A DNA stretch of 64,000 nucleotides. Origin: Mycobacteriales bacterium. GTDB lineage: Bacteria > Actinomycetota > Actinomycetes > JAFAQI01. Both the position numbers and the translations under genes were made by a program. Below the pieces are notes generated by a model. That model was not told the DNA's origin, made no database searches, and worked only from the letters and a program-made list of their open reading frames with translations. The stretch's first letter is position 1. Every line of letters starts with the position of its first letter. The stretch covers positions 1 to 64,000 of the forward strand of contig DATJSI010000028.1 of the NCBI GenBank assembly GCA_035504215.1. The letters are read 5' to 3'. Positions 12,191 through 47,475 of this stretch are shown here, in pieces.

Positions 12191-12194
12191 GCCG

Positions 12195-14482: not shown

Positions 14483-14540
14483 TGATCTTGACGTTGGAGG
14501 CGCACAAACCTCGATCCGTGCGCCTCCTACGTCAAGATCA
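14483..14540. repeat. Dispersed palindrome, copy 1
   Basis: Left arm 14483-14505 and right arm 14518-14540 are reverse complements over 23 bp with one mismatch, separated by a 12-bp loop. A second copy with the same arms lies at 16914-16976. The last 3 bp are the TGA stop codon of the upstream minus-strand gene. It could work as a transcription terminator for that gene despite the absence of a U-tract, or be a REP-like mobile palindrome. Confidence 0.85.
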
Positions 14541-14888
14541 GCGCGGGTCGGGCCAGTGCTGGAGGCAGACCCGGCCACCGATGACGTCGAGGACCAGCTC
14601 CGGCCGGGCGGTCGCAGCATCGCGGACCCGGACCTCGTAGCTGCCCTGCTTCAGCGCCGGGAAGACCGCAGCCCACACGGAGCCGGTCGCCAGCACCCGC
14701 TCCAGAACCGCGACGTGCGTCCCGTTCCAGACCTGGCCGGCCTCGCGGATCTCGATCTCCTCACCGGCGAGCGACAAGGGCACGTACAGCACGACCGCAC
14801 CCACGTCGCCCCCGATGTCGAGGACGACCGTGCCGGTGCCGCTCGGCTCGGGCAGCGGCGCGTGCCCGACCGACGTCAATACGCTCAC
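14538..14888 (-). CDS. Hypothetical protein linked to DUF4331 protein (116 aa)
   Basis: Not recognised by family. It is predicted mostly beta-stranded (VVLDIGGDVGAVVLYVPLSL, VWAAVFPALKQGSYEVRV), with a conserved-looking EIEIREAG segment, and could be a small beta-sandwich. There is no signal peptide. Its start overlaps the stop of the DUF4331 gene as ATGA, so it is translationally coupled and very likely acts with that protein. The stop codon coincides with the end of a repeated palindrome. Confidence 0.7.
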   Translation of the reverse strand: MSVLTSVGHAPLPEPSGTGTVVLDIGGDVGAVVLYVPLSLAGEEIEIREAGQVWNGTHVAVLERVLATGSVWAAVFPALKQGSYEVRVRDAATARPELVLDVIGGRVCLQHWPDPR

Positions 14889-26132: not shown

Positions 26133-26690
26133 ATGCGTTCGGCCATCCCGCCCCGAGCCCTGCCCCGCACTCCTGGTCAGCGCGAGATCGATCTCACCGC
26201 GTACGAGTCCGAGCCGGCCTCGGCGGCGGCTCCCACCCGCCCGAGGGTGATGTTCGTCGCGTCGAACGGCGGCCACCTGGCCCAACTGATCGGCCTGCGC
26301 GGCTGGTGGTCGGGACGCGAACGCGTGTGGGTCTCGTTCGACAAGCCGGACGCCCGGTCGAAGCTGGCCGACGAGGACGTGGTCTGGGCCCACTGGCCGA
26401 CCACGCGCAACCTGCCGAACCTCGTACGCAACTTCTGGCTGGCGGTCGCCGCGATCCGTCGCCACAAGCCCGATGTGATCGTCTCCACCGGTGCCGGAGT
26501 CGCGCTGCCGTTCTTCATCGTCGGCCGGATCCGGCGGATCCCGACCGTCTATATAGAGGTGTATGACCGCTTGGACTCGCGCACGCTGACCGGCCGGCTC
26601 TGCAAGCCGCTGTCGACCAAGTTCCTCGTCCAGTGGCCCGAGCAGGAGGCGCTCTACCCCGGTTCGACGAACGTTGGGCCGCTGCTGTGA
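26133..26690 (+). CDS. Alg14/PssD-type glycosyltransferase subunit
   Basis: N-terminal half of a split UDP-sugar glycosyltransferase, 185 aa. Family-typical segments are [17 protein letters not shown] (nucleotide-sugar glycosyltransferase-like loop), [20 protein letters not shown] and [15 protein letters not shown]. In relatives (Cps14F, PssD, Alg14) this subunit anchors and positions the catalytic partner at the membrane. ATG 26133 follows a purine-rich GAGGGAAGG stretch; GTG 26130 is also possible. It is the first gene of a six-gene polysaccharide operon, and the next gene starts inside its stop codon. Confidence 0.9.
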
Positions 26691-27262
26691 CCTCGACGTA
26701 CCGCAAGCCGCTCGTCTTCGTGACGGTCGGGGGCGACCACCACCCCTTCGATCGGCTGATGCAGTGGGTCGAGCGGTGGTTGAGCGATGAGGGCGACCGG
26801 GTGAGATGCGTCGTGCAGTACGGCACCGCGCTGCCGCCGGCCGGCGCCGAGTGCTTCGACTACCTCGACCACGACGCGCTGCTCGGTTTGATGGAGTCCG
26901 CGCGTGCGGTCGTCTCGAGCGGCGGCCCGACCACGCTGCTCGAAGCCCGGCGACTCGGTCACCGGCCGGTCGTCGTACCCCGCCGGTCGTCACTCGGCGA
27001 ACACGTGGACGACCACCAGCGCCTGTTCGCGGCCCGCCTGCACACGGAGAACCTGGTCGTCCGGGCAGAAGACGAGCCGGCCTTCCGCGACGCGGTGCAT
27101 GCGGCCATTGACGCGCCCCGCATCGTCACGCCGAGAGAGCTGTCGACCGAGGGTGTGATGAGGATCGGCCGGCTGATCGACGAGACCGCCGGCTTCTCGA
27201 CCAACGACCGGACCGGAAGCGGCGGGCAAAGTCGCGATCTGTCAGTGACGATGCTGCCTTGA
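26687..27262 (+). CDS. Alg13/PssE-type glycosyltransferase subunit (GT28 C-terminal domain)
   Basis: Catalytic partner of the preceding Alg14-like protein; 191 aa. The sugar-nucleotide-binding motif is seen as [25 protein letters not shown]...GEHVDDHQ, the GT28 C-terminal signature. Together the two would add one sugar (in known homologues GlcA, Gal or GlcNAc) to a lipid-linked acceptor on the cytoplasmic side. The GTG start at 26687 overlaps the upstream stop (GTGA), so the subunits are made in step. About 30 C-terminal residues past the domain look disordered. Confidence 0.9.
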
Positions 27263-28218
27263 GCGTCGACACCGCCACCGAGTCGGCGCCCGCGGCAGAG
27301 TCCGCGGTGCTGCCGACCGTCACCGTCGTCATCCCGACGCGAGACCGTCCCGAGATGCTCAAGCGTGCCGTCGAGGCGGTGCTCGGCCAGACCTACTCGG
27401 GCGACGTCGAGTGCATCGCGGTGTTCGACCAGAGCGACCCCGAGCCGATCGATGTCGAGATCGGCCCGCGCCGCACCCTGCGAGCGGTGCGCAACAGCCG
27501 AAACCCCGGGCTCGCCGGCGCGCGCAACACCGGTGTTCTCTCCGCAACCGGCTCCCTCATCGCGTTCTGCGACGATGACGACGAGTGGATGCCGGGAAAG
27601 CTCGAGCAGCAGGTCGAGCTCCTCACGATTAACCCGAAGACTGTAATTGTGGGATGCGGAATCGTCATGAGGCAAGGCGAGGTCGACATCGCCGTCAAGC
27701 CCGGAGCGGCCACCGTCACACTTGATGACCTCCTGCGGAGCCGGGTACTCGAGCTCAATCCGTGCACCTTGCTCGCGAGGCTTGACTTCTTCCGCGATCG
27801 AGTCGGCTTGGTCGACGAGTCGCTGCCTGGGGGGTACGCCGAGGATTACGACTGGCTCCTGCGCGCAGCGAGCCTCACCTCCATCCCGATGATCTCCGCA
27901 CCCCTTGTCCGCATCAATTGGCACAGGGGCTCGTTCTTCCAAAGTCGCTGGGCAACGATTGTTGACTCGTTGACCTACCTGTTGGCCAAGCATCCGGAGT
28001 TTGAGCGAAGCCCTCAGGGGCGCGGCCGCATCCTCGGACAGATCGCGTTCGCCCAAGCAGCTCAGGGTAAGCGTCGCCAGGCCCGGCAAACGGCGGGTCG
28101 CTGCCTACGCAGCAACTGGCTTGAGCCTCGCGCGTACCTCGCCCTTGCCGTGGCATTCCACTTGCTCTCGCCGGAGCTCGTTCTTCGGGCGGCGCACGCG
28201 AGAGGCAAAGGAATCTGA
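27259..28218 (+). CDS. Glycosyltransferase family 2
   Basis: Cytoplasmic inverting glycosyltransferase of 319 aa with a GT-A fold. The N-terminal motif TVTVVIPTRDRPEMLKRAVEAVLGQTY, the NPGLAGARNTGVLSATG loop, and the DXD-like metal motif AFCDDDDEWMP are clear. GGYAEDYDWLLRAA is the usual acceptor/catalytic region. It adds a sugar during repeat-unit assembly; donor and linkage are unknown. The TTG start at 27259 overlaps the previous stop as TTGA. From about 27600 the codons become visibly more AT-containing than in neighbouring housekeeping genes, which hints at horizontal origin. Confidence 0.9.
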   Translation: MSVDTATESAPAAESAVLPTVTVVIPTRDRPEMLKRAVEAVLGQTYSGDVECIAVFDQSDPEPIDVEIGPRRTLRAVRNSRNPGLAGARNTGVLSATGSLIAFCDDDDEWMPGKLEQQVELLTINPKTVIVGCGIVMRQGEVDIAVKPGAATVTLDDLLRSRVLELNPCTLLARLDFFRDRVGLVDESLPGGYAEDYDWLLRAASLTSIPMISAPLVRINWHRGSFFQSRWATIVDSLTYLLAKHPEFERSPQGRGRILGQIAFAQAAQGKRRQARQTAGRCLRSNWLEPRAYLALAVAFHLLSPELVLRAAHARGKGI

Positions 28219-28219
28219 G

Positions 28220-29533
28220 GTGATCGCGACGCGGTCATCCCGCACCCGTCAGCGCGCTCGCGAGCTTCCGATCTGGCCTTTATGGGGGCTGTTCGCGGGC
28301 TTTCCTATCGCATGGTTATTGGGACTGGGCGGCTTCATCCCGCAGATCGTTGCGGTACCGATGGTCTTCATCCTCGCGACGGTAGGGTCGGTGAGACTGC
28401 CGAAGTCCCTGGGCACGTGGCTTCTGTTCCTGCTCTGGATGCTGCTGAGCGCACTTGAGGTGTCCGGCGCGACGCACTTTCTCGGTTTCGCCTATCGCGC
28501 CAGCCTCTATGTGGCTGCAACTGTGATTTTCGTTTATGTGTACAACTGCGCTCCGGAACGGCTTCCGGTCGAGCGACTGTGCACGATGGCTGCCATCATG
28601 CTCGGATTCGTGGTGGTGGGCGGCTACCTCGGAATCGCCCACCCGCATGGTTCTCTCACGACACCCTTCCAGCATGTCCTGCCAGGAAGCATTGTTAACA
28701 ACGATCTCGTAGGGAAGCTTGTCCACCCCCCGTTTGCCCAAGTAAGCACACAGACCGCGGCGCGGGTAAAGCCAAGACCGGCAGCCCCTTTTCCGTACAC
28801 GAATACTTGGGGAGTTAACTTCGCATTCCTGGTTCCCTTCGTCCTCGCCGGAGTGGCATCGGCTCGGCGCTCTCGCGTGCGGGTTGCGCTCATCACTCTG
28901 CTGATCGTCGGTCTCGTGCCGGCAGTCGCGACCCTCAATCGAGGCATGGCGTTCGGCATCGCCGTGGGGGTCGTGTACGTCGCAGTGCGCTTCGCCATGC
29001 AGGGGCATGGCCGGGCGCTGGTAGGCGTGCTCGTCGTAGCCGGCCTTCTGGTCGGCATCGGCTCGGCCTTGCATGTGACGCGGCGCTTGGACGAGCGGCT
29101 GAGCAACAGCTCGAGCAACGACAGCCGCACGGCGGAATACGCAGCGACCTACAACGAAGTTCGACAGTCACCACTCCTCGGCTACGGCGCACCCGCAGCT
29201 TCCACGGTCAACACCAACGGCCCCGATCTGGGCACCCAGGGCGAGTTCTGGACCGTGCTCTATTCGTCTGGCTTCCCGGGCGCGGCGTTCTATGTCCTCG
29301 CCCTGATTGGGTTCGCCTGGTCTACCCGCCGGGTGCGGTCTCAGAGCATGATGTGGATGCATGCGGTCCCAATAATCGCCCTCGCCGTTCTCATCGTCTA
29401 CCGGATCCAGGGCACCGAGCTCGACCTATTGATGGCCGCGACCGCCATTGCGCTGCGCGACCGCCCGGTGCGCTGGGTTCTGGCTGATCGAGCGGTTCAG
29501 CCGGCTCGCGAGTTCGCCTCGATCAGCGGATGA
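28220..29533 (+). CDS. O-antigen ligase / Wzy-type polysaccharide polymerase
   Basis: Integral membrane protein of 437 aa with about 10-12 hydrophobic segments. The large extracytoplasmic loop (HGSLTTPFQHVL... NTWGVNFAFL) and the Wzy_C-like region (LNRGMAFGIAVGVVYVAVRF; EYAATYNEVRQSPLLGYGAP) fit O-antigen ligase/polymerase proteins that join repeat units at the outer face of the membrane. It starts at GTG 28220, one base after the GT2 stop, with AAAGGAA just upstream. Polymerase rather than ligase is inferred from the neighbouring flippase and Wzz-like gene. Its third-position GC is lower than in core genes. Confidence 0.85.
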   Translation: MIATRSSRTRQRARELPIWPLWGLFAGFPIAWLLGLGGFIPQIVAVPMVFILATVGSVRLPKSLGTWLLFLLWMLLSALEVSGATHFLGFAYRASLYVAATVIFVYVYNCAPERLPVERLCTMAAIMLGFVVVGGYLGIAHPHGSLTTPFQHVLPGSIVNNDLVGKLVHPPFAQVSTQTAARVKPRPAAPFPYTNTWGVNFAFLVPFVLAGVASARRSRVRVALITLLIVGLVPAVATLNRGMAFGIAVGVVYVAVRFAMQGHGRALVGVLVVAGLLVGIGSALHVTRRLDERLSNSSSNDSRTAEYAATYNEVRQSPLLGYGAPAASTVNTNGPDLGTQGEFWTVLYSSGFPGAAFYVLALIGFAWSTRRVRSQSMMWMHAVPIIALAVLIVYRIQGTELDLLMAATAIALRDRPVRWVLADRAVQPAREFASISG

Positions 29534-31125
29534 GCGTCCACCAGATGGATGCGCCGGCTACCTCGTCGGCGACCGGACAGCGAGTCATCCGCGGCGGCGC
29601 GCTGAGCTTCGCGGGCGGGTTGATCGCGGGCGTCGGCGGATTCCTCCTCACGGTTGTCGTTGCTCGCGGACTCGGCGCCGAGCAGGCCGGCGTCTTCTTC
29701 GTTTCGCTTGGTTTGTTCACGATCCTCAGTAACGCACTCGAGCTCGGGGCTGACACCGGACTGGTTCGCGCGATCCCGCGGCTGCGCGCCCTTGGCCGAC
29801 CGGCCGACATCTCGCGGACCTTAATCGTCGCCACCGTTCCTGTTCTCGTCGTCGGGTGCATCGCGGCGGTGCTCGTGTCCATTTACGCGCCGACGCTTGC
29901 CCGGGTGTTTATGACTCAGGGCAACAGCGTCCACGGCGCGAGCTTCCTGCGAACGGTGGCGCCGTACCTCGCGTTCGCGTCCGTGGCAACCGTGCTAGCG
30001 GCCGGCACCCGAGGCTTCGGGAGCGTGGTGCCGTACGTCAGCATCCAGAACATCGGCCTGCCGCTGCTGCGACCGCTCGCGATCGGCGTCCTCGTCACCG
30101 CCGGCATCGCCACGGAGCGCTCAGTGGCGGCCGCGTGGGGGCTGCCGCTCGTCGCCGCCGCGCTCATCGCGGCCGGCCTTGTCGTGCGCTCGACCCGGCG
30201 GCTAGGCACGGCCGGCCAGTCCGCCACGGAGCCACGGCCGCTACCGGCCCTCGCAGGGGAGTTCTGGGCGTTCGCCGGCGCTCGCGCCTTCGGCGGCGTC
30301 GCAGAGATCATGCTGATCTGGCTCGACGTTTTGCTCGTCGGCTGGCTCGTCGGGCCGTTGGAGGCGGGCGTCTATGCCGCTGCCAGCCGCTTCATCACCA
30401 CGGGAACCCTGGTGCTCCAGGCCACCCGGATCGCGATCACACCGCAGCTGTCGAGGCTCCTAGCCACGGAGCGGACATCGGAAGCGGAGGCGCTGTTCAA
30501 CGGCGGCGCCCAAGCCGTCGTCGCCGCCTCCTGGCCGCTGTATCTCGGGCTGGCATGTTTCTCGCCAGCCATCCTTCGCGTCTTCGGCAGACACTTCACC
30601 AGCGGCGCAACCTCGCTGACGATCCTCTCGCTGGCCATGCTGGTCGACACCGCGACCGGCAACATCGGCAGCGTCCTGCTGATGGCCGGGCGCAGCCGCT
30701 GGAACGTCGTGAACGCTACGAGCGCGCTCGCGGTGGACGTCATTATCGACCTGCTGCTCATTCCGCATCACGGAGCGACCGGAGCAGCAATCGGATGGGC
30801 CGCGGCGATCGTTGTCCTCAACGTGCTCGCATGTCTTGAGGTGCATTACCTGATGGGTCTGCAGATCTTCGACCGGGCGACGATCCGGACCGCCATCCTC
30901 GCCGGGCTGTGCTTCGGCGCACCCGGTGTCGTTCTCGGCCTGCTCGAGCCTCGATTGTTGTGGCCACCGGCAGCGTGGCTGGTCATCGGCGGTGCCTGCT
31001 ATGTCGCGTGGTGGTGGCGACGGCGCAACGATCCAGAGATCCGCCTCCTCCTCGACGCGCTCGGGGTAAGCCGGCTGCTCAACCTCCGCCCGGCGACTGA
31101 CCACCACACGTCGGGGCCACGATGA
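29530..31125 (+). CDS. Wzx-type polysaccharide flippase (MOP superfamily)
   Basis: Membrane protein of 531 aa with about 14 predicted helices. The opening GGALSFAGGLIAGVGGFLLTVVVARGLGAEQAG is the characteristic start of Wzx/MurJ-like exporters, followed by FFVSLGLFTILSNALELGADTGLVRAIPRL. It would flip the lipid-linked repeat unit from the cytoplasmic to the outer side of the membrane. The ATG overlaps the polymerase stop (ATGA), and the sulfotransferase gene overlaps its own stop in the same way, so polymerisation, flipping and sulfation genes are translationally coupled. Confidence 0.9.
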   Translation: MSVHQMDAPATSSATGQRVIRGGALSFAGGLIAGVGGFLLTVVVARGLGAEQAGVFFVSLGLFTILSNALELGADTGLVRAIPRLRALGRPADISRTLIVATVPVLVVGCIAAVLVSIYAPTLARVFMTQGNSVHGASFLRTVAPYLAFASVATVLAAGTRGFGSVVPYVSIQNIGLPLLRPLAIGVLVTAGIATERSVAAAWGLPLVAAALIAAGLVVRSTRRLGTAGQSATEPRPLPALAGEFWAFAGARAFGGVAEIMLIWLDVLLVGWLVGPLEAGVYAAASRFITTGTLVLQATRIAITPQLSRLLATERTSEAEALFNGGAQAVVAASWPLYLGLACFSPAILRVFGRHFTSGATSLTILSLAMLVDTATGNIGSVLLMAGRSRWNVVNATSALAVDVIIDLLLIPHHGATGAAIGWAAAIVVLNVLACLEVHYLMGLQIFDRATIRTAILAGLCFGAPGVVLGLLEPRLLWPPAAWLVIGGACYVAWWWRRRNDPEIRLLLDALGVSRLLNLRPATDHHTSGPR

Positions 31126-31979
31126 CTCGGCCCATGCGAACGGTTGCGAAGACCGCTTTCCGCGAATGGGGAGTCGCCACCGCCTCGCTACGGCAACTTC
31201 CGGACTTCCTGATTATTGGAACCAAGCGCGGCGGCACGACCTCGCTATGGAACTACCTGTTGACCCATCCCCACATACTGCCCATGTTCCCCGCCGCGCA
31301 GAACCTGAAGAGTCCGCACTACTTCTACTGGCACTACGACCGCAGTGAGCGGTGGTACCGATCGCATTTCGCCACCCGACTACGCCGCACTCAGTTGGCG
31401 CGAGTTGGGAAGACCGCCCCGGTCACCGGCGAGGCGAGTCCGTACTACCTCTACTCGCCGTACGCCGCGGAGCGGGCTCGTGCCTTGCTCCCGCAGGCCA
31501 AGATCATCATCATGCTTCGCGACCCGGTGGCTCGCGCCTACTCGCACTACTGGGAACGGGTGCACGAGGGGGTCGAGCCGCTGAGCTTCGATGCCGCCCT
31601 CGCGGCCGAGGACGACCGGCTCGCAGGCGAGGCCGATCGGATGGCTGCCGATCCGCTGTACTACAGCCGGCCGCACGACTTCTACACGTATCGCGATCGC
31701 GGCGTCTACCTGCCTCAGCTCGAGCGCTGGCTCGGCCAGTACCCCAGCGAACAGGTTCTGATCGTCCAGAGCGAGGCGTTCTACGCCGACAAACAAGCGA
31801 TTTTCGATCAGGTGACCGACTTCCTCGGGCTGCCCGGTCATCAGCTCGGTGAGGTCAAGCGCTTCAACTACCGCCCGGCGGAGCCGATGAGCGAGCCGAG
31901 CCGCGAGTTCCTCACAGACTTCTTTGTGCCGCACAACCGTGCGCTGTATGACTACCTTGGCCGAGACTTCGCCTGGTAG
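31122..31979 (+). CDS. Sulfotransferase (heparan-sulfate N-sulfotransferase-like)
   Basis: Cytosolic PAPS-dependent sulfotransferase of 285 aa. The 5'-phosphosulfate-binding loop is DFLIIGTKRGGTTSLW (G33-K35), and the 3'-phosphate-binding motif is IIIMLRDPVARAYSHYW (R133 D134 P135), the pattern of the carbohydrate-sulfating NDST-like group. It is the last gene of the six-gene operon, overlapping the flippase stop as ATGA. This tight linkage is the main evidence that the exported polysaccharide carries sulfate. The acceptor is not known. It converges on the second sulfotransferase, which ends 10 bp away. Confidence 0.9.
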   Translation: MTRPMRTVAKTAFREWGVATASLRQLPDFLIIGTKRGGTTSLWNYLLTHPHILPMFPAAQNLKSPHYFYWHYDRSERWYRSHFATRLRRTQLARVGKTAPVTGEASPYYLYSPYAAERARALLPQAKIIIMLRDPVARAYSHYWERVHEGVEPLSFDAALAAEDDRLAGEADRMAADPLYYSRPHDFYTYRDRGVYLPQLERWLGQYPSEQVLIVQSEAFYADKQAIFDQVTDFLGLPGHQLGEVKRFNYRPAEPMSEPSREFLTDFFVPHNRALYDYLGRDFAW

Positions 31980-31981
31980 GC

Positions 31982-31998
31982 CGCACCATTCAGGTGCG
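31982..31998. terminator. Short hairpin between convergent sulfotransferase genes
   Basis: CGCACC and GGTGCG pair over 6 bp around a 5-bp loop exactly at the junction of the two convergent genes, and the loop contains the stop codon of the minus-strand gene. A bidirectional terminator role is plausible but there is no T-run. Confidence 0.35.
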
Positions 31999-32940
31999 TC
32001 GCAGATAGCCGTACCGCCACAACCACGGCCCGGTGAGCACCGACACCAGTCGGCGACGGCTCGCCGGCATCGCGCGGCGCCATTCGTCGTCCACCGCGAG
32101 CGGCACCCTGCCGCTGGTAAAGCGCATCGGATTCCCTGCGACACTGTGATCGGGCGCGAGTGATACCACACCTTCGCTGACCAGGCCCGCAGGCACCCCA
32201 TCGAGCCGGGCGAAGGCGGCGATGCGATTCAGTTCTCCTTCGGTCTGATTGACGAAATCCTCGTAGCGCATTCTCATGATGGGAACGCGAACAAGCCGGC
32301 CAAGCTCAAACATCGAGTTGAAGCCCACCCATTCCACCGTGCTTCGCACGCTTGAGTAGGTGTCCATGTACGCCTCTTCGTGCTGGATCTCCGGGCGCGG
32401 CTTACGTCTCGTCCACGAGTAGGCCACTCCCCTGCTGTCACGCACGAGCAGGCAAATCCGGAGGTCGAGCGGCATCTGACGAAGGACGAGCGCGTGCGGC
32501 GGCCCCTTCGACGTATCGACGATGACGGCGGCACCGCTCACATCCGAGATGGCGCTGTAAAGACGCGTGATGTGCTCGCAATAGGACGCGAGCTCAGATC
32601 GCGTGAGTTTTGCGGCGCGCGGTACGGCTAGGGCCGGAATCCGCCGAGTCCGCTCGAGCCGCGCGCGCAAGGCTTCGGCTGCGTTCGCATCGACGACGTC
32701 CCAACCCCCGAAGGCGGCCTGGCCCACCGCGGTCCAGAACGAGCAGTCGAGGAATCCCTCTCCGCAGCCGCATAATTGGTTCTCAAGCACGCCACGGCGC
32801 CAGATGAACATCAACTCGCCTGCATTGAATGCACCCGGCATCGCACCCAAGACACGACCCACGAGCGTGCTGCCGCTGCGCCCCGCGCCGCCGACATACA
32901 GAACTCGAAGCGACCCCTGACTATCGCGACCCTTCTCCAA
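31990..32940 (-). CDS. Sulfotransferase family protein
   Basis: Second PAPS-dependent sulfotransferase, 316 aa, of a different subgroup from its convergent neighbour. The 5'-PSB loop is VLYVGGAGRSGSTLVGRVLG (G17-T25), a CGCGEGFLDCSFW cysteine-rich segment is typical of this bacterial group, and the 3'-PB region is ICLLVRDSRGVAYSW. The TTG at 32940 is the best start: a GAGGAGG ribosome-binding site lies 8 bp before it, while the nearer ATG is out of frame and too close to that site. It is divergent from the phosphotransferase gene with 51 bp between them. Confidence 0.88.
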   Translation of the reverse strand: MEKGRDSQGSLRVLYVGGAGRSGSTLVGRVLGAMPGAFNAGELMFIWRRGVLENQLCGCGEGFLDCSFWTAVGQAAFGGWDVVDANAAEALRARLERTRRIPALAVPRAAKLTRSELASYCEHITRLYSAISDVSGAAVIVDTSKGPPHALVLRQMPLDLRICLLVRDSRGVAYSWTRRKPRPEIQHEEAYMDTYSSVRSTVEWVGFNSMFELGRLVRVPIMRMRYEDFVNQTEGELNRIAAFARLDGVPAGLVSEGVVSLAPDHSVAGNPMRFTSGRVPLAVDDEWRRAMPASRRRLVSVLTGPWLWRYGYLRRT

Positions 32941-32948
32941 CGATCATG

Positions 32949-32955
32949 CCTCCTC
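32949..32955 (-). promoter_or_regulatory. Ribosome-binding site fixing a TTG start
   Basis: GAGGAGG read on the minus strand, 8 bp before the TTG at 32940 of the sulfotransferase gene. The only nearby ATG (32947) would leave a 1-bp spacer and is in another frame. Confidence 0.7.
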
Positions 32956-32991
32956 GCGCAACCTATGCCTCTTGCCCCGTACCCTCTGACC

Positions 32992-34227
32992 ATGAGCCTG
33001 GGCGCACTATCACCCCGACTCAAGCGACTGGTCGATCATCTGTGGGGCAGTGACGACGTCATCGTCACGCTGAGTGATCGATGCCCTCCAGGGTATCGAG
33101 CCATCGAGTCCTATGCGATCGTTCCGTATGCAAACAAGGCGGAGTTTCTCGTCCCATTGACCGCCGGCCGTACAACTGCGGCGAGAAGTCTCACTGCCTA
33201 TCGGATGCTTCGACCGATGTCTGTTCGGTTTACGCGTTTGGGCGTGGCTGCAGCCGTGCGGCTTCACGCGATTCCCATCACGTCACAGCAACTTACTATC
33301 TTCGTGAGGCGCGACGTCTCCGATGTGGATCTGCCGGCGGTGTCTCCCACTCACTGGTTATCGCAGCGACTCGGTACCGATCGCCTCGTCGCGGCGCTGG
33401 CCGTACCCGCACTGGCTCCGAACGCAAAACCGACGCTCCAGCTCTTCAGCGAGAAGGGCGATCCGGCCGGCTACGCGAAATTCTCCTGGAACGAGAGCAC
33501 TCGAGAGCAGGTCCGTGCCGAGGCCGCTGCGGTCATACGCGTTGCACCGAAGCTATCGACCATCGACGTCCCCGCCTGCCTGTGGAGCGGTCAGTGGGGC
33601 GGATTCGACGTTATTGTCACTGCGCCGATGCCGACGGATGCCACGGCCTGGGCTGGCTCTCGCGCTCCCTCGCTTGAGATCGTCGAGGATGTGGCGCGTA
33701 CCTCGAGGATGAACACGGCGCGCTTACCCGATAGCGCGATCGTGCAACGGATAGCCGCGATGGTGCAGGACGGCGGTGCAAGGCTAGACCCAGCGCTTCG
33801 ACATGCGTTGCATCGCGCCGTCGAGACAGTCGGAGAGCGCTGGCCACACCTCGAACTACGCGAGGGCACCTGGCACGGAGATTGGGTTCCCTGGAACATG
33901 GCCACCGCCTCCGGACGGACGGTGGTGTGGGACTGGGAGCACAGCCGGGAAGGTGTGCCGGTCGGCTTGGACCTCCTGCACTGGCACTTCCAGCACGGGT
34001 TCATCGCTGAGAAGGTCAGCTTAGAGGAGTCGCTGCGGAGAATGCGCAGCGGCGGTACCAAGGGCGTCGGCCAGCTGCAAGGCTCCAGTGAGGCGGCTGA
34101 GGCCTGCGCCGACCTCTACAGCCTCGAGATTTGCGCCCGCTATCTTGCAATGCAGGCAGCGGGGAGTGGGTGGGCTCCTCGCTTCTACCCCGACGCGCTC
34201 ACCGTGCTAGCTCGGCTGACCTCGTGA
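32992..34227 (+). CDS. APH/choline-kinase-fold phosphotransferase
   Basis: Predicted small-molecule or sugar kinase of 411 aa. The catalytic loop HGDWVPWNMA (H295, D297, N302) and the metal-binding VVWDWEHSREG (D314) are the Brenner and DFG-like motifs of the aminoglycoside phosphotransferase/choline kinase fold. The first 200 residues are less typical but include LFSEKGDPAGYAKFSW, which resembles the nucleotide-binding beta-hairpin with its Lys (AKF). Start: ATG 32992; ATG 32965 is possible. Its position next to two sulfotransferases suggests it modifies a polysaccharide precursor, but antibiotic or other substrates cannot be excluded. Confidence 0.75.
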   Translation: MSLGALSPRLKRLVDHLWGSDDVIVTLSDRCPPGYRAIESYAIVPYANKAEFLVPLTAGRTTAARSLTAYRMLRPMSVRFTRLGVAAAVRLHAIPITSQQLTIFVRRDVSDVDLPAVSPTHWLSQRLGTDRLVAALAVPALAPNAKPTLQLFSEKGDPAGYAKFSWNESTREQVRAEAAAVIRVAPKLSTIDVPACLWSGQWGGFDVIVTAPMPTDATAWAGSRAPSLEIVEDVARTSRMNTARLPDSAIVQRIAAMVQDGGARLDPALRHALHRAVETVGERWPHLELREGTWHGDWVPWNMATASGRTVVWDWEHSREGVPVGLDLLHWHFQHGFIAEKVSLEESLRRMRSGGTKGVGQLQGSSEAAEACADLYSLEICARYLAMQAAGSGWAPRFYPDALTVLARLTS

Positions 34228-34245: not shown

Positions 34246-36036
34246 TCAGTCCGTGCCTGGCTCCTGGTTGAAGACCGCGCTCTTGCCCGCGCTGGCAAAC
34301 CCGGCCAAGGTGCCTGGATCGACAGTGAGCTCTGAGCTACAACCGCTCGCCGTGTCGTCCCACTCCATCACTGCCTTGATATTCGGGTGGGATGCCATGG
34401 CCGCGGGAACGGACGCGTACCAGTCACCCGACGCCGAAGGATCACTCGGGTCTGCAACAGTGCCGTACTCCGGGAGCATGAACGGCTTGTCCCCGTAACC
34501 GTTGCTCTCCAGCCACTGGTAGAAGGGGTCGATCGTGTCGTTGAACGACTTCCACGCGGTGTTGTGGCACGAGGCGAAGTTGTAAGGGTCATAGCCGATC
34601 CAGTCGACGTAGGAGTTTCCCGGGTAGAGCGAGTTGAACTCCGCGTCGTGGGCGCTGTAGCCGGTCACCGTCCACACCCAGATCACGTTCGTCACGCCAT
34701 CGGCGGCAAAGCGGTCATGGATGTGCCGGTACGCGGCCACGTAGTCCGCCGCAGATCCGGCGACTGCCATCCGGCCGTCCATCTCGGGATCGAAGGTCAG
34801 GAAGACCGGCTTGCCGTAAGCCTTGAGACGAGCCGCCTCGGGATCGATGACGGTCGCGTCGTACTTGCCATCGGCGATGTCCGACCACAGCAACTGGGCA
34901 CCGGTCGAGAAGTTCCTCGATGCCCACGAGAACATCAGGTAATGGTTCTGACCCAACGCCTGCTCGTACTTGTCCGGGAACTGGCCTGAACTACCGGAGT
35001 TCGACATGTCGTGGTAGCGATAGATGATGTCGAACGGGCGCCCAACCTGGGATTCAAGATCGGTGAAGGTCGTCTGCCAGTTCTCCCCGGTGCCCGGCGG
35101 TTTGTAAACCCCCCACCAGACGCCGCAGGACGGCACCAGTAAGGCCGAGACAGTGCACGGGCCGGCAGAGCCGGAGGACGACGGCGTTGGCGTGGGCGAG
35201 ACGACCGGCGGCACGGTCACGGTGCTCGACGGGGTCGGCGTCGGGGTCGAGCTCGGCGTGGTTGACGGCGTGGGTGTGCTCGACGGCGTCGCGGTCGGCG
35301 TCGGGTCCGCGCTCACCGTCGGCGTCGCGGACGGCGACGTGCTGGGCTGCGGGTCGGAGGGGTGCCGGCCGCGCGACGGCGGCGCGACGATGCGCACCCG
35401 CCGCACGGTCACGGTCTGGACAACCTTGGCGTTGTCGACCTCGACGGGCACCTTGCGATGCCGGGTCGAGCCGGTCACGAGGACCACCAGGCGAGAGCCA
35501 TCCGTGCGGTTCTGCGTACGCAAGGTGATCCTGCGCCAGCCGTTGTGGCGAAGCGTCAGCTCGCGGCTGTGGACCGCAACCACCCGGCCATGCTTGGTCG
35601 TCTCGAGGCGCAAGCGCGCGACGGTGCGGCGATGGTCGCTGCGCCGGACCATCACTGAAGCGTGATAGCGGTCGCCGAACAACGCCCGCTGCATCTTCAG
35701 TCGCTCGCTCAGGTTCGTGCGCCCGCGCTTGTGGCCGACGAGGCGCGCGGCCTGTCCGCTGTGCCATCCGGGGTGCACCAGGTTCAGCTTGGCGTGCCCG
35801 GCACCGCTCGAGTGCCAGTGCTTGCGCCCCTCGCCGAACCCGCCGTTTCGGACGAGCTCGATGTGGGTGTGCTCGAGCACCCGCCGGACCGTCACGGTCT
35901 CCCGACCGGCCGGCACGCGCTTGCTGGCCGACAGCGGGGACGCGTGGGTGAACGTCGGCAGCGCCACGCTCAGCATGCCGATCAACACGTTGACGGCTAC
36001 TACCGCGCCGTATCTCCGCGCGGACACGATCGACAT
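34246..36036 (-). CDS. Secreted GH26-like glycoside hydrolase with N-terminal carbohydrate-binding-like domain
   Basis: Exported protein of 596 aa. A signal peptide (YGAVVAVNVLIGMLSVALPTFTHAS) is followed by a beta-sandwich resembling CBM4/9 modules (ELVRNGGFGEGRKHWHSS... GWRRITLRTQN). A Ser/Thr/Pro linker of about 55 residues comes next, then a GH26-like catalytic domain from GPCTVSALLVPSCGVWWGVY. Candidate acid/base is E418 in FDPEMDGR and nucleophile E523 in LPEYGT, with IWVWTVTG and WIGYDPYNF between. The start ATG 36036 has GGAG just upstream. Related catalytic domains occur at 47476 and 49830. Mannan or another beta-glycan is a likely substrate; the locus suggests it processes the exopolysaccharide. 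Confidence 0.85.
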   Translation of the reverse strand: MSIVSARRYGAVVAVNVLIGMLSVALPTFTHASPLSASKRVPAGRETVTVRRVLEHTHIELVRNGGFGEGRKHWHSSGAGHAKLNLVHPGWHSGQAARLVGHKRGRTNLSERLKMQRALFGDRYHASVMVRRSDHRRTVARLRLETTKHGRVVAVHSRELTLRHNGWRRITLRTQNRTDGSRLVVLVTGSTRHRKVPVEVDNAKVVQTVTVRRVRIVAPPSRGRHPSDPQPSTSPSATPTVSADPTPTATPSSTPTPSTTPSSTPTPTPSSTVTVPPVVSPTPTPSSSGSAGPCTVSALLVPSCGVWWGVYKPPGTGENWQTTFTDLESQVGRPFDIIYRYHDMSNSGSSGQFPDKYEQALGQNHYLMFSWASRNFSTGAQLLWSDIADGKYDATVIDPEAARLKAYGKPVFLTFDPEMDGRMAVAGSAADYVAAYRHIHDRFAADGVTNVIWVWTVTGYSAHDAEFNSLYPGNSYVDWIGYDPYNFASCHNTAWKSFNDTIDPFYQWLESNGYGDKPFMLPEYGTVADPSDPSASGDWYASVPAAMASHPNIKAVMEWDDTASGCSSELTVDPGTLAGFASAGKSAVFNQEPGTD

Positions 36037-36103
36037 CTCCGACTCCGGTGCATCCTTGGGACTAGCCCTGACACACAACAAAGTCGGCCGCCGTATGCCC
36101 GAA

Positions 36104-36124
36104 CTGACGAGCCCATTCGGGTGA
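36104..36124 (-). promoter_or_regulatory. Conserved upstream motif, site A (GH26 gene)
   Basis: Minus-strand reading TCACCCGAATGGGCT followed by CGTCAG. The same TCACCCGA-(T/A)(T/C)GG(G)CT core occurs upstream of the two big LamG genes (41382-41405 and 54812-54835). It lies 68-88 bp before the ATG at 36036, a reasonable position for a regulator site or promoter element. Which factor binds is unknown. Confidence 0.55.
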
Positions 36125-36362
36125 TGCCGCGGCTCGGCCGATGGCCATTTCTCCTTAGTCCGTTTGGACCAATCGGAGTAATCCTTTGGTGGCTCTCGCA
36201 GCGCACGCGGTGGAGGCGCCTCGATGAGCACGCCGAGAAGGCTAACCCGCCCGGCGCGCCTTTCCTGCTCGTTCGTCACCATTCCGGCTTGCGGCGCGGT
36301 GAAGGAGGATTGCCGTACAAGGCTCGGTGTAGATGGCGCTCGCTCTCGGTGCCCACACGCCA

Positions 36363-36392
36363 GCGCCCCGCCGGATGAATCCGACGGGGCGC
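36363..36392 (-). terminator. Strong hairpin terminator downstream of the LamG gene
   Basis: GCGCCCCG pairs with CGGGGCGC and, one base further in, CGGAT pairs with ATCCG, leaving a 2-base gap. The total is 13 bp of stem 51 bp after the stop codon of the 36443-41260 gene. No T-run is seen, which is usual for actinobacterial terminators. Confidence 0.6.
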
Positions 36393-36442
36393 CGAGATGC
36401 GAAGCGTTGTGCCTGCCTAATGCGTTGCTCGAGCGACGTTCC

Positions 36443-39400
36443 TCACGTGCCCGGACCGAGCGGGCCGGTGGTGCCGAACGCAACGTCATCGAGCCGGATG
36501 GTGCCTGGCGCGGTGGACGAGGACAGCACTTGACCGATCTGGAGCGATCCGAACGCCGTGCCGGTGTTGATCCCGCTCACCGTGTGCGACTCAATCGGCG
36601 TGGTCGAGTCACCGGAGTAGACGCTCACCGTCAGCGATCCCGACGTCGTCGAGTTCACCAGCGTCCACTCCACTCGCAGCCAGGTGTTGAGGGGCAGCGA
36701 CTGCGTGAACGTGGCCTGCTTGGTGTTATTGGCGTCGTACAGCGTGATCTTTCCGGCGGTCGAAATGTTGATCTGCGCATCCCGGTTGAACGACGAGTCA
36801 CCGAGGTGGGCGAACTCTTCCGTGACCGCGGGGTTCGCGGCCAGGTAGAGGTAGGACCGGCCATAGCTCGTGGTCGACGTCGAGGTGATCGACGTCTTCC
36901 CCCACTGGAGGTAGCACGGCGAGGTGCCCGGCGTAAGTGCGGCGGCGAGCGTGCCGTGCGCCGAGTTGGTGCTGTAGGTCGCCGTTCCACCCGTGCAGCT
37001 CACCGAGTCGAACTTGTTCCCGGATCCTCCGCCGGAGTTGGCCGCGGTGATCGCCGTGCCCGATGTGCCGCCCTCGAAGCTGTTCGCCAGGACCGCCGGG
37101 TTGAGTGCCGGCGTTGTCGCCGAGGCGGCGGTCGACGCCGGGCCTGGGCCCGCGGAGTTGCTAGCGATCACCTGATACCAGTAGGGCGTGTTCGGCGACA
37201 ACCCGATGTCGTTGTACGAGGGTGAGCTGAGCCCGGTAGCCACCGGCGAGAACCCACTGGTGCCTGACACCGTCGACCGGTCCACCTCGTAGGCGGTGGC
37301 CCCAGGCGTCGCGCCCCAGGTCAGGTCGATCTCGGTCGGGGAGACCGCGTTGGCATGTACCCCGGTCACCTGGCCCGGCGGAACCTGGTTGGTCGTCGCC
37401 GACTGGGTGTCGGAGAACGCACCGGTTCCGCCGTTGTCAACCGCCGCAACCTGGTAGTCGTACGTCGTGCCCGGGTTCAGGCCCGTGTCGTTGTACGACG
37501 TCGCGCTCGAACCCGAACTGATCGTCGTCCAGTTCGACGAGCCATGCGGGGCTCGCTGCACCACGTAGGTCGACGCACCGGTTGCGGTGTTCCAGGTCAG
37601 GTCGATCTCGGTGCTGGACACCGCGTTCGGGTTCAGCCCCGTGACCTTCGCCGGCAGGGTGGTCGCGGACGCGATGTTGGACGTGGCGCCGGGACCGGCC
37701 GAGTCGGACGGGATGACCTCGTAGTCGTACGCGTCGCCGGGGTTGAGCCCGGTGTCGCTGTAGGTCGTCCCGTTGACCGTCGCCTGGTCGGTGAAGGTGT
37801 TCGCACCGCTCGGGCTACGCCAGACGTCGTACGACGTGGCACCCGTGGCAGCACCCCAGCTCAGATCGATCTCGCTGGTGCCGTTGGTGGACGCCGTCAG
37901 CGTGCCCGGCTGGGCCGGCACCGTGGTGATCGTCGTGAGGCCTGACGGCGGGCTGTCGCCGCCCGCGTTCGACGCAACGACCTCGTAGTCGTAGCTCCCA
38001 CCCGGCGTGAGGCCACTGTCGTCGAAGCTGGTCCCGGTGACACCCGTCGCGACGTACGCGAAGTTGTTCGCACCGGACACGGAGCGCAGCACCTTGTAGG
38101 AGCTGGCACCGGCGACGGTGCTCCACGCCACGTGAGCCGTGGTGGGCGACGAGCTCGAGACGGTCGGCGCACCCGGCGCCGGCGGCGGGGTCGGCGTGGT
38201 GCTCTGGCCGGTCCCGATCTGGTAGTCGTTCAGGACCTGAGCGGCCGACAGGGCGTACGGGTAGATCGCCACCTCGTCGACGGAGCCCTGGTAGTCCTGG
38301 ACGCTGCCCCAGCCGCTGTCGCCGCCGACGTGCCAGTACCCGTTGTAGGACTGGTTCGTGGTGACACCGTTCGACGCCACCAGGTTGCCATCGACGTACA
38401 GCTTCATCCCGGAGCTGTCCTGAGTCGCCACGACATGGTGCCACTGCCCGTCGGCAAGATTCGGCGAGGCGGGCGCGGAGACCACGTCTTCCTCGTTGTT
38501 CCAGACACCGAAGTTCAGAACACCGTTGTTGAAGTAGATGTGCTTGTCGTAGTTGCCGCTCCCGGTCGGTGAGCTGCTGTTGCCGAACCCGATGATCTTG
38601 CCGTTCGGGTTCGTGGTCTTGAACCACGCCTCGATGCTGAACGTCGACGGGCTCGGCGTCTGCGAGGTCGAGACCATCACACCGTCGTCGTTGCCGTCGG
38701 TCGAGATCGCGGTGTCGGCCGGCGAGCTGCCGTCGTTGATCGCGCCGGGCACACCGAGCGTGTCACCGGTGTTGTAAAGACCGTTGTCCGCGTTGCCCGA
38801 CAGGTCGTTCGCCGTGTTGCCGGACGTCTCATCGAGCCGCCAGTACAGCGACGGGCCGTCGGCGATGACGGTCTTCGCGTACGGCGTGTTGGAACCCGGC
38901 AGGGTCGGCAGCGTGTAGCCGGCCGCGGTGTACTGCGCCGCCACCTGCTGCGGAGTCAACGCGGTGTTGTACACCGACGCCTCGTCGATGCTGCCGCCGA
39001 AGTAGTTGCTGCTCGGCTGGCTCGGCCACCCGTTGAGGTTGTCCTCACCCACGCGCCAGAACCCGTTGTAGGTCTGGTTGGTGGTGGTCGGGTTGCTGCC
39101 GACCTTCACGCCGTCCACGTAGAGCGACATGCCGGACGGACCCTGAGTGCCGACCACCTGGTGCCACTGACCATCGTTGTAGGACTTGGTCGTCTGGATG
39201 ATGTCGGTGCCACCGTTGTAGGTACCGAAGATCAGCTGACCGCTGTTGGTCATGTAGATGTGCTTGTCGTAGTTGCTGCTGTCACCGGTCTGGTTGTTGC
39301 CGAAGCCGATGATCTTGCCGCCGGACGTCGTGGTGGTCTTGAACCACGCTTCTGCGGAGAAGACCGACGGGCTCGGCTCCGACTGGCCGGACGAGAAGTA

Positions 39401-41260
39401 GCCGGTCGAGCCATCGAGTGTCATCGCCGTGTTCGAGTCGCCGAGGATGCCGCCCGGCTGGCCGAGCGTGACACCGCCGGTGTAGACGCCGCCGTTCAGG
39501 CTCGGCGAGGAGTCGGCGGCGATCGTCCCGCCGGACTCTCCGAACCGCCAGTACCCGACTGGATTCTGGCTCAGCACGGTCGCGGCGTACCCGGTGCTGC
39601 CGTTGGAGACGGTGACCGGAGCGGATGCCACCGACATCGGACTACTGCCCGTACCGTAGGTTTCGACCGCTTCGACCTTGTACGTGTGTTGGCTACCAAG
39701 CTGAAGGCCGCTATCGGTGAACCCGACCACCGGCTGCTGCCAGAAGTACGACGTCACGTTCTGGCTGGCGATCGGAGTCGTGCCGCCGTCGCGGAACAGT
39801 TCCATGGTCAGGTCGACGTCATCGAGGTCCACCGGAGCCTGCGCGTAGACGTTGATCGACCCCGGGCCGGAGGCAACCGCGACCGGCTGGGCCGGCTTGG
39901 GGGTCGGGTAGTCGTTGGTCGTGGTGAAGCGAGCAATACCCTGTTGCCCCACGTAGTTCATCGTGGTGAAGTCGCCGCCGACGTAGAGCTGGGTCCCATC
40001 CGTCGCCATCGCCCGTGGGCCGAGGTTCGGACCGGCGTTGGAGAAGGGGTACCACGGGCCGAGGAAACCGTTGCTGGTGTTCAGCGAGAGCAAGTGACGG
40101 GCGTGGTTGGTGTCGACCTGAGGAAAGTTCGCCGGGTCGTCCGACACCGGCCCGTTGGTGTTGTTCTCTTGGCAGTCGTGCGCGTGGGAGCCCTTGTAGA
40201 CGTAGTTGCCGATCACCGCCAGAACCTGCGTGGCACCGAGGCACCTGTTTACCCACTTCAATGAGCCGTCACTGAGGTTGACTGCCCACACGCCGTCGAA
40301 GCAGCCACCGCCGGTACCTTCATCGGCGATATAGGCGACTCCGCCGCTGATCGTCGCGAACTTCACGTCGGAAGTGCAGCCGTTGACCGGTGCGGCGTCG
40401 GTGCCCGGCGGGACCGCAACGGCATCGGCCGGCATCGGCTCAAGTGCTCCAGGCGTCGAGGACGTCACGCCACCGATGATGGCGGCCTTGTTGTAAACGG
40501 TCGTACCGTCCGCGCTCTGCGACAAACCGTCCACGTTGCTGAAGTAACCGCCGGCGACCACCTGTGAACCGTCAGAGCTGACGGCAAGGGCGTCTACTGT
40601 GTTGTCGAAGCTCGGCGTCGTTCCGGTACCCCACGACATAGCGGCACCGGTCGTCGCATTGATCGCCGCGAAATTCGTCCCCACCGTCGTCTTGCCCACC
40701 TTGGCGAACGAGCCGCCGACATACACGACGTTCCCGAACGTTGCGATCGCGCTCACCTTGCCACTGACATTCGGATTCCACGAAAGGAGGGCACCCGTGG
40801 ATGTGCTGAATGCCGCGATGTGGTTGCGCGACAGGCCGTCGACGGTGGTGAAGCTGCCGCCGACATAGACCGTGCTGCCGTCCGGTGAGACCGCGACGGC
40901 GCCGTTGGTCAGGGGCAGGCCCGATGACTGACCGGAGAAGATATGGGTGTCATCGATCGCGGGGTCTGGCGCCCCGGTCGAAGCCTTCAGTGCGGCGAAG
41001 TAGTCCGCCGGCTGCTCGCCCGTCCCCAGCGGGTCGCCCGGCGGCCGCAGCGAGGTGAAGTCGCCCACCATCCAGATGTCACCATTGCCGTAGGCCATCT
41101 TCCAGACCGTCGCATTCGACTGCCATGAAGACGACACCTCCGCGGACATGCTCCCGGGCTCTACCGCATTTGCCGCGGTCACCGACGCCAGCTGCACGGC
41201 GGGCACCGCAACTGCCGTCAAAGTGAGAAGAGTCGCAATGAGGGTGAGGATGCGACGCAT
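36443..41260 (-). CDS. Secreted beta-propeller, twin LamG, Fn3 giant protein (1605 aa)
   Basis: Exported protein made of repeats. A signal peptide (residues about 1-33, ending ANAVEPG) is followed by a beta-propeller-like region to about 470 with repeated YVGGSFTTVDG / YVGGDFTTM blades. A linker domain runs to about 560, then two LamG/concanavalin-like domains (about 565-780, GYWRFGESGG; about 800-1015, LYWRLDETSGN). Four Fn3 domains follow (about 1030-1390), then a C-terminal beta-rich domain of about 210 residues (NSFEGGTSGTAITAANSGG to LDDVAFGTTGPLG) also found in the gene at 50855. There is no sorting signal or C-terminal membrane helix. ATG 41260 has GGAGGGAAG upstream. A role in binding extracellular glycan or in adhesion is inferred. 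Confidence 0.88.
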   Translation of the reverse strand: MRRILTLIATLLTLTAVAVPAVQLASVTAANAVEPGSMSAEVSSSWQSNATVWKMAYGNGDIWMVGDFTSLRPPGDPLGTGEQPADYFAALKASTGAPDPAIDDTHIFSGQSSGLPLTNGAVAVSPDGSTVYVGGSFTTVDGLSRNHIAAFSTSTGALLSWNPNVSGKVSAIATFGNVVYVGGSFAKVGKTTVGTNFAAINATTGAAMSWGTGTTPSFDNTVDALAVSSDGSQVVAGGYFSNVDGLSQSADGTTVYNKAAIIGGVTSSTPGALEPMPADAVAVPPGTDAAPVNGCTSDVKFATISGGVAYIADEGTGGGCFDGVWAVNLSDGSLKWVNRCLGATQVLAVIGNYVYKGSHAHDCQENNTNGPVSDDPANFPQVDTNHARHLLSLNTSNGFLGPWYPFSNAGPNLGPRAMATDGTQLYVGGDFTTMNYVGQQGIARFTTTNDYPTPKPAQPVAVASGPGSINVYAQAPVDLDDVDLTMELFRDGGTTPIASQNVTSYFWQQPVVGFTDSGLQLGSQHTYKVEAVETYGTGSSPMSVASAPVTVSNGSTGYAATVLSQNPVGYWRFGESGGTIAADSSPSLNGGVYTGGVTLGQPGGILGDSNTAMTLDGSTGYFSSGQSEPSPSVFSAEAWFKTTTTSGGKIIGFGNNQTGDSSNYDKHIYMTNSGQLIFGTYNGGTDIIQTTKSYNDGQWHQVVGTQGPSGMSLYVDGVKVGSNPTTTNQTYNGFWRVGEDNLNGWPSQPSSNYFGGSIDEASVYNTALTPQQVAAQYTAAGYTLPTLPGSNTPYAKTVIADGPSLYWRLDETSGNTANDLSGNADNGLYNTGDTLGVPGAINDGSSPADTAISTDGNDDGVMVSTSQTPSPSTFSIEAWFKTTNPNGKIIGFGNSSSPTGSGNYDKHIYFNNGVLNFGVWNNEEDVVSAPASPNLADGQWHHVVATQDSSGMKLYVDGNLVASNGVTTNQSYNGYWHVGGDSGWGSVQDYQGSVDEVAIYPYALSAAQVLNDYQIGTGQSTTPTPPPAPGAPTVSSSSPTTAHVAWSTVAGASSYKVLRSVSGANNFAYVATGVTGTSFDDSGLTPGGSYDYEVVASNAGGDSPPSGLTTITTVPAQPGTLTASTNGTSEIDLSWGAATGATSYDVWRSPSGANTFTDQATVNGTTYSDTGLNPGDAYDYEVIPSDSAGPGATSNIASATTLPAKVTGLNPNAVSSTEIDLTWNTATGASTYVVQRAPHGSSNWTTISSGSSATSYNDTGLNPGTTYDYQVAAVDNGGTGAFSDTQSATTNQVPPGQVTGVHANAVSPTEIDLTWGATPGATAYEVDRSTVSGTSGFSPVATGLSSPSYNDIGLSPNTPYWYQVIASNSAGPGPASTAASATTPALNPAVLANSFEGGTSGTAITAANSGGGSGNKFDSVSCTGGTATYSTNSAHGTLAAALTPGTSPCYLQWGKTSITSTSTTSYGRSYLYLAANPAVTEEFAHLGDSSFNRDAQINISTAGKITLYDANNTKQATFTQSLPLNTWLRVEWTLVNSTTSGSLTVSVYSGDSTTPIESHTVSGINTGTAFGSLQIGQVLSSSTAPGTIRLDDVAFGTTGPLGPGT

Positions 41261-41381
41261 GTGGGCTTCCCTCCGAGGTCCTTCTGTCGTTTGTCCGACC
41301 CCCACGACAGGGGACGTCAGTGATGTGTGGAGAAGATCAGAAATCGAGGATGGCACAGGGACAGGACCGCTGTACGGCAAA

Positions 41382-43417: not shown

Positions 43418-43566
43418 TTTCGGGCTGGGCTCACCCGGGCCGCGATCGTCGCCACCGTCCACACGTAACGATCCGGATCCGTTGTCTCGATGGTACTGAC
43501 CTCGCCAGAGGCTCGCAGGCGAACCACAAATCCCATCAGCAACGCTACGAAGTCCAACCGGCCCGA

Positions 43567-47208: not shown

Positions 47209-47475
47209 GGCATCTGCTCCCTGCGACTAGATCGTGGTGAATGCGAGCACCGAGTCTAGGCGAACCGCGCCGCGCGTGCGGGCTCGGGACATATCGCAGA
47301 TTTGGCGTGCAGGCCGGCAATTCGCCGTAACCGACCGCCCGCCCCGCCGGTGCGCCCGGTCTCGGCAGTCCGAGACCATCGGTTAGGTTGGCTTCCGGTT
47401 CTCGAAAGTGCACCGCTGCACCAGCCGATGTAGTTATCGGTGACCGAGATCAACCCCTTCCCACCAAAGGACGTC

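Follow-up and report, generated by a model that had tools for sequence, protein, structure and literature searches.

A rearranged gene module predicted to make a sulfated polysaccharide in Actinomycetota

The stretch of DNA analysed here, referred to as the window, spans positions 1 to 64,000 (64,000 nucleotides) of contig DATJSI010000028.1 in the genome of a Mycobacteriales bacterium (assembly GCA_035504215.1). The genome is a 3.47-Mb draft, and its order is sampled by 13 genomes. The window contains a cluster of genes resembling a Wzx/Wzy-type polysaccharide assembly system, together with two sulfotransferases (ST1 and ST2) and a kinase (KIN). The cluster's upstream neighbour is mfd, on the minus strand.

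The core of the cluster is a run of six plus-strand genes, 26133-31979, in which neighbours share 4 bp or sit 1 bp apart. The first (26133..26690; Pfam Alg14 5.8e-11; NCBIfam PssD 3.2e-31, 108.7 bits against a cut-off of 110) encodes an Alg14/PssD-like protein, the membrane-anchoring subunit of a two-part glycosyltransferase. It overlaps by GTGA with the gene for the catalytic subunit, an Alg13/PssE-like protein with a GT28 C-terminal domain (26687..27262; Pfam GT28_C 8.4e-9; PssE 1.2e-14), which in turn overlaps by TTGA with a GT2 glycosyltransferase gene that starts with TTG (27259..28218; Pfam Glycos_transf_2 7.6e-22). After a gap of 1 bp comes a Wzy-like polymerase of the O-antigen-ligase superfamily (28220..29533), assigned from a Pfam Wzy_C match below the cut-off (1.3e-6; 28.7 bits against 31.7), hydropathy with about nine hydrophobic segments, and synteny. 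ATGA overlaps then join this gene to a Wzx-like flippase of the MATE/polysaccharide synthase family (29530..31125; MatE 5.9e-6; Polysacc_synt_3 1e-5), and the flippase gene to ST1, an enzyme with the heparan N-/3-O-sulfotransferase fold (31122..31979; Sulfotransfer_3 1e-13). The initial annotation had described six genes overlapping or abutting within 4 bp, and both coordinates and families agree with it. Elsewhere, an apparent in-frame Wzy-Wzx fusion occurs at L155:2529-5801, and a long open reading frame (ORF) at L200:2587-5757 unites Wzy-like and KIN-like parts.

The second sulfotransferase, ST2, is of a different subfamily (31990..32940; minus strand; Sulfotransfer_3 2.1e-8). Its gene has a TTG start with GGAGG upstream, and because it lies on the minus strand, convergent with the ST1 gene, it is outside the operon. 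KIN (32992..34227; plus strand), a homologue of WpsI from a published cluster described below, is a kinase of the APH/choline-kinase fold, recognised by its catalytic residues and a predicted AlphaFold2 (AF2) model. The earlier statement that a second sulfotransferase and an APH-fold kinase follow the six genes thus holds for their presence, but ST2 does not belong to the operon. The same annotation took the overlap of sulfotransferase and flippase genes to tie sulfation to assembly. By itself the overlap is weak evidence; the argument is carried instead by gene fusions and by sulfate-activation neighbours.

The locus is probably of the Wzx/Wzy type and would direct synthesis of an extracellular or matrix polysaccharide that is sulfated and perhaps phosphorylated as well. 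This pathway, already proposed in the initial annotation, draws support from synteny, linked sulfate-activation genes, fusions, the fold of ST1, and genes for 3'-phosphoadenosine 5'-phosphosulfate (PAPS) in the genome. Sulfation of the polymer is a well-supported prediction from genes and models.

In most of the 36 lineages sampled, which span at least three classes, a rearranged form of the module is present. Of 393 genomes sampled from the window's class, 65 contain an ST1 match at E <= 1e-40. When 46 ST1-bearing loci were searched by tblastn with proteins of the window, Wzy was found at 39, KIN at 38, Wzx at 37, GT2 at 30, ST2 at 23, GH26 at 21 and Alg14 at 19. From named genomes, the 80 loci with the best ST1 matches were taken, Micromonospora being heavily represented; Wzx is present in 71, Wzy in 64, GT2 in 63, KIN in 61 and Alg14 in 57. 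Collapsed into 36 genus-level lineages, assigned by hand, the same loci yield Wzx in 28, KIN in 26, and Wzy and GT2 in 25 each. They come from Actinomadura, Planobispora, Micromonospora, Salinispora, Arthrobacter, Nocardioides, Cellulomonas, Leucobacter, Serinicoccus and Kineosporia, among others, and from metagenome-assembled genomes (MAGs) of Acidimicrobiales and Euzebyaceae. In five Acidimicrobiales-type loci, no module genes other than ST1 and ST2 were recognised. Gene order is shuffled between relatives. Closest to the window in gene content is locus L172, from a Euzebyaceae MAG, with Alg14, Alg13, ST2, GT2, Wzy, Wzx, ST1, KIN, Wzz, GH26 and LamG. A chance neighbourhood is ruled out by the recurrence of the gene set and by the linked sulfate-activation genes.

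Such linkage is found in 10 of the 36 lineages, in which the distance from ST1 to CysQ, CysD, CysN or a sulfurylase/adenosine 5'-phosphosulfate (APS) kinase is at most 10 kb. If chance alone is assumed to give this in 2.1% of cases, the binomial p is 3e-9; with 5% it is 7e-6. Cellulomonas sp. APG4 (L163), for instance, has CysQ, CysD and CysN beside the gene set. The initial annotation had suggested a search of the genome for PAPS synthesis genes, and these are indeed present: contig C112 carries CysD (TIGR02039), CysN (TIGR02034), a CysQ-like phosphatase and APS kinase adjacent to one another. About 5 kb from them is a priming glycosylphosphotransferase (TIGR03025, 423 bits), one of two in the genome, none being within the window; dTDP-rhamnose-type genes are nearby. 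A single CysH was found in the genome, and its CC...CxxC pattern is that of iron-sulfur APS/PAPS reductases. Reductases of this type can use APS, and APS kinase would therefore be free to serve sulfation.

Fusions provide a further link. ST2 and Alg13 form one polypeptide in Cellulomonas (L163), in Ornithinimicrobium (L196) and at loci L099 and L112, while ST2 and GT2 form one polypeptide in L172. These joins between ST2 and glycosyltransferases are in frame and free of stops. A fifth Alg13-ST2 fusion, in Arthrobacter sp. Soil763 (L149:14891-16351, minus strand), has an ST2 half without the PAPS-binding motif; this half appears degenerate, suggesting a sulfotransferase in decay within a fusion that persists. 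Linked activation genes, ST2 fusions and PAPS genes in the same genome are three independent lines of sequence evidence, and all point to the involvement of sulfate.

A related cluster is known. The wps-1 cluster of Actinoplanes missouriensis (WpsA-WpsK, AMIS_7280-7380) was published in 2026 as a predicted sulfated-polysaccharide cluster, in which WpsH is a heparan-sulfotransferase-like protein, WpsB belongs to another sulfotransferase family, WpsI is kinase-like, WpsE is a GH26 protein, and WpsG, WpsJ and WpsK are Wzx, Wzy and Wzz (PMC13390465). Deleting any one of wpsA, C, G, H, I, J and K gives squashed sporangia, as in the mutant lacking the whole cluster, and deletion of wpsB gives a milder sporangium defect; all genes except wpsD are required for normal sporangium formation or spore release, as is AMIS_7390, an adjoining sulfurylase/APS kinase (PMC13390465). 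The sulfate in the product is a prediction that awaits verification (PMC13390465).

Locus L237 was taken as wps-1, since it fits the published gene order and the WecG residue range 64-241. It has homologues of ST1, ST2, KIN, GT2, GH26, Wzx, Wzy and Wzz, with a sulfurylase/APS kinase adjacent. By tblastn, ST1 is 38% identical to WpsH, ST2 46% to WpsB and KIN 29% to WpsI. Common to both clusters are thus the assembly genes, GH26, the kinase family and one sulfotransferase from each of the two subfamilies. They differ in gene order and in that wps-1 has a WecG/GT26 enzyme (WpsC) where the window has the Alg14/Alg13-like pair. Their ST1 clades are sisters, the window belonging to subtype A and wps-1 to subtype B; with its subtype A ST1 and its Alg14/Alg13 pair replacing WecG, the window is therefore a sister subtype rather than wps-1 itself. 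The sulfurylase/APS kinase adjoins wps-1, whereas the window's counterpart is on C112; some other subtype A lineages, unlike the window, have sulfate-activation genes adjacent. Every one of the 60 genomes sampled from the genus that includes Actinoplanes sp. RD1 has a close subtype B match, and some have a second copy.

Two more distant systems show what such loci produce. The xss cluster of Synechocystis PCC 6803 likewise combines Wzx, Wzy and a polysaccharide co-polymerase with two sulfotransferases of distinct subfamilies, and its product, synechan, was shown to contain sulfate; it is cyanobacterial and has eight glycosyltransferases, and the portion of the paper available notes no kinase or GH26 (PMC8205485). 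In the capsule locus of Vibrio sp. KMM 8419, whose sulfated polymer has a solved structure, sulfotransferases and PAPS genes (cysNDC) occur in one polysaccharide locus, a combination described as a hallmark of sulfated polysaccharide synthesis (PMC11641403). That locus differs in being Gram-negative and in its ABC-transporter (Kps-type) export. Both cases demonstrate that sulfotransferases built into a polysaccharide locus do go with a sulfated product.

Downstream of KIN are a GH26-like secreted hydrolase (34246..36489, minus strand; Pfam GH26 2e-7), whose real start is probably near 36039, ahead of a signal-like segment; a large secreted LamG and fibronectin-III protein (36443..41380, minus strand; Pfam Laminin_G_3 1.2e-46), likely matrix or lectin-like; a secreted beta-propeller (DUF5122) protein (41456..43582, minus strand), similar proteins recurring beside relatives' clusters; and a Wzz-like chain-length or co-polymerase protein with a ParA-like domain (43567..45456, minus strand; Pfam ParA 1.7e-4 and Wzz 0.009, both below cut-off). 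The Wzz-like protein has three hydrophobic segments, its gene lies about 9 kb past KIN, and its ORF cluster spans 32 loci. On account of these downstream genes the locus is taken to reach about 45.5 kb. It perhaps extends to 50.8 kb, where a second and a third GH26-like protein (47440..48546, Pfam GH26 1.6e-6; 49830..50822, 4.8e-6; both plus strand) are possible parts of it. The three GH26-like genes fall inside 17 kb, and such genes recur beside the cluster in relatives and in wps-1. Very large secreted LamG/fibronectin-III/beta-propeller proteins flank the locus (36443-41380, 50855-54775 and 57621-60002); similar proteins flank relatives' clusters and may be matrix proteins.

KIN has no Pfam family match in the window, and 31 of its 32 members have no Pfam APH match. 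Its AF2 model (pLDDT 94) has the APH/choline-kinase fold, with VIA Z 16.2 to ethanolamine kinase and 15.7 to human fructosamine-3-kinase; matches to choline/ethanolamine, fructosamine and aminoglycoside kinases are tied. The residues H295, G296, D297, N302, D314 and E316 (HGD...N, DxE) are invariant in alignments A2 and A3, and K163 and E177 are invariant in A2 and at least 90% conserved in A3. The APH-fold kinase of the initial annotation is thereby borne out. KIN shares fold and catalytic residues with known kinases of these families (2qg7, 9cxo, and 4r77, which is LicA) and differs from them by an added N-terminal region of about residues 1-140.

This fold bears on the most serious alternative, that the product is a sulfated or phosphorylated cell-wall glycopolymer, teichoic-acid-like and attached to the wall by the Wzy-like protein, which would be a ligase, rather than a free exopolysaccharide built by a polymerase. 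The Wzy_C/WaaL superfamily does include ligases, and the fold of KIN is that of choline/ethanolamine kinases such as LicA, which serves teichoic-acid decoration in pneumococcus. The Wzz-like protein, the flippase and the GH26 enzymes, however, fit a Wzx/Wzy route, and wps-1 mutants are defective in sporangium structure while their growth on agar looks normal (PMC13390465). A wall glycopolymer is accordingly considered unlikely.

ST1 raises a different question. Its AF2 model (pLDDT 93) is closest to 3rnl, a sulfotransferase from Alicyclobacillus, and to heparan 3-O- and N-sulfotransferases, with VIA Z 23-26, against 14.5 or less for every other sulfotransferase, which agrees with its initial description as NDST-like (N-deacetylase/N-sulfotransferase-like). 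The cytosolic SULT and tyrosylprotein sulfotransferase types are ruled out for ST1, their best Z being 14.5. With the heparan enzymes (1nst, 1t8t, 3uan, 8ccy) it shares fold and PAPS-binding loops at Z 23-25 over 224-240 residues; phmmer matches that family at 4e-21, with PAPS-binding motifs kept. Unlike them, it has no membrane segment.

The heparan sulfotransferases also have a catalytic glutamate, in a K-E-x-x-F motif, where the bacterial clade has Ser, Gly, Thr or Ala. In NDST-1 this residue is Glu642. In the 3-O-sulfotransferases (3-OST) it is Glu184 of 3-OST-3 and Glu90 of 3-OST-1, and the E184Q change leaves 3-OST-3 with less than 1% activity (PMC8341778). Ser64 of ST1 aligns with this position. 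Among 132 aligned homologues residue 64 is S in 66, G in 44, T in 10, A in 6, D in 4, K in 1 and E in 1, the D and E rows falling outside the cluster-linked clade. The neighbouring Lys63 is invariant over all 132, and R36, G38, T40, K63, E104, R133 and R138 are conserved across the clade. A tree built from 91 sequences divides the ST1s linked to clusters into subtypes A (approximate likelihood-ratio support, SH-aLRT, 97) and B (99). The two unite in a single group (91) whose members all lack Glu. Every outgroup homologue that could be scored from the order of the window has it (19 of 19). The tree is a quick one with some long outgroup branches, but the residue pattern is independent of it. 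On these alignments, the cluster-linked lineage has lost the usual catalytic glutamate clade-wide, so activity of ST1 cannot be assumed.

Several loci show further variation. Four of subtype B (L090:265, L089:12432, L102:13412 and L116:5977) have a third sulfotransferase type, KDLYFF, with Asp replacing Glu, beside GT2. In an uncultured Nocardioidaceae MAG (L188:10001-10840) the ST1 gene has an in-frame stop, from either a pseudogene or an assembly error. Two ST1-type genes surround Wzx and KIN at L235, positions 10076-14806 (Euzebyaceae genome G409, contig C228; L172 is from the same genome).

One could suppose from the missing glutamate and the E184Q result that ST1 is no working sulfotransferase but a structural or regulatory subunit with fold and PAPS sites kept, leaving ST2, where present, as the sole sulfating enzyme. 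Its PAPS-binding and other residues are conserved over the whole clade, unlike those of a decaying enzyme. In L237 the motif reads KGVHYFD, so WpsH also lacks the glutamate, yet it is required in vivo and its deletion reproduces the whole-cluster phenotype, although this does not prove catalysis. Several loci also have linked sulfate-activation genes with no ST2 detected. An inactive ST1 is rated somewhat less likely still than a wall glycopolymer.

ST2 is indeed of another subgroup, as first annotated: its profile is nearest in PDB to the olefin-synthase sulfotransferase 4gox (7e-8) and then to tyrosylprotein sulfotransferases, while single-protein searches of PDB with ST2 and KIN gave no useful match (profiles and the AF2 model did). 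As the nearest matches of ST2 and the known activity of other actinobacterial sulfotransferases on lipids and small molecules might suggest, both enzymes could have a protein, a lipid or a small molecule as their target and lie here by chance or shared regulation. This is very improbable given the recurrence over many genera, the ST2-glycosyltransferase fusions and the polysaccharide-sulfotransferase fold of ST1.

Several observations nevertheless weigh against a Wzx/Wzy-type locus for a sulfated polymer. ST1 lacks the glutamate that is the 3-OST catalytic base (PMC8341778), and ST2 is detected in only 12 of 80 subtype A loci, though many of them are cut short. The window's sulfate-activation genes and priming transferase are on a separate contig, and the locus itself holds only two glycosyltransferase activities. 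The Wzy protein is identified by a sub-threshold Pfam match and synteny, and a search with the window's Wzz-like copy matched just 5 of 80 loci. In the literature, no report was found of sulfate measured on a purified actinobacterial polymer of this kind.

If the locus does make such a polymer, the priming transferase on C112 would load the first sugar onto undecaprenyl phosphate, and the Alg13/Alg14 pair and GT2 would extend the lipid-linked unit. No strongly hydrophobic segment is found by hydropathy in ST1, ST2 or KIN, and for this reason the three should act in the cytoplasm, before the flippase. ST2 and ST1 would use PAPS to sulfate the lipid-linked unit ahead of flipping, and KIN would probably phosphorylate the unit or a group added to it. 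Wzx would then flip the unit and Wzy polymerise it, with the Wzz-like protein setting length. CysD, CysN and APS kinase would supply PAPS, while CysQ would remove 3'-phosphoadenosine 5'-phosphate (PAP). Outside the cell, the GH26-like and LamG/propeller proteins would act on the polymer or bind it.

A bolder proposal is tentative and, for now, doubtful: much of Actinomycetota may share a glycosaminoglycan-like polysaccharide, sulfated and phosphorylated, from an ancient shuffled module whose ST1 works without a glutamate base. ST1 would then rely on a different residue or on the substrate's own carboxylate or phosphate, possibly one installed by KIN.

Bacterial sulfated polysaccharides have been called essentially cyanobacterial (PMC13390465, PMC8205485), although the marine Vibrio case exists (PMC11641403). 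The initial annotation likewise regarded them as rarely described in actinobacteria, but the core idea is not new there, having been published for wps-1 (PMC13390465). Judging by the papers searched, the following is new: the module extends across the phylum, also to genera without known sporangia; many lineages link it to sulfate activation; sulfotransferase and glycosyltransferase are fused in some loci; and a whole clade has lost the catalytic glutamate. Besides sporangium-formers, the module is present in Arthrobacter, Cellulomonas, Leucobacter, Nocardioides and Micromonospora, which are not known for sporangia, and partly present in Acidimicrobiales and Euzebyaceae MAGs. Because of this distribution, the polymer would not be solely a sporangium component. 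Sulfation can be tested directly in cultured strains that have sulfate-activation genes linked to the cluster, and a heparan-type sulfotransferase clade without the catalytic glutamate would bear on the mechanism of the enzyme class.

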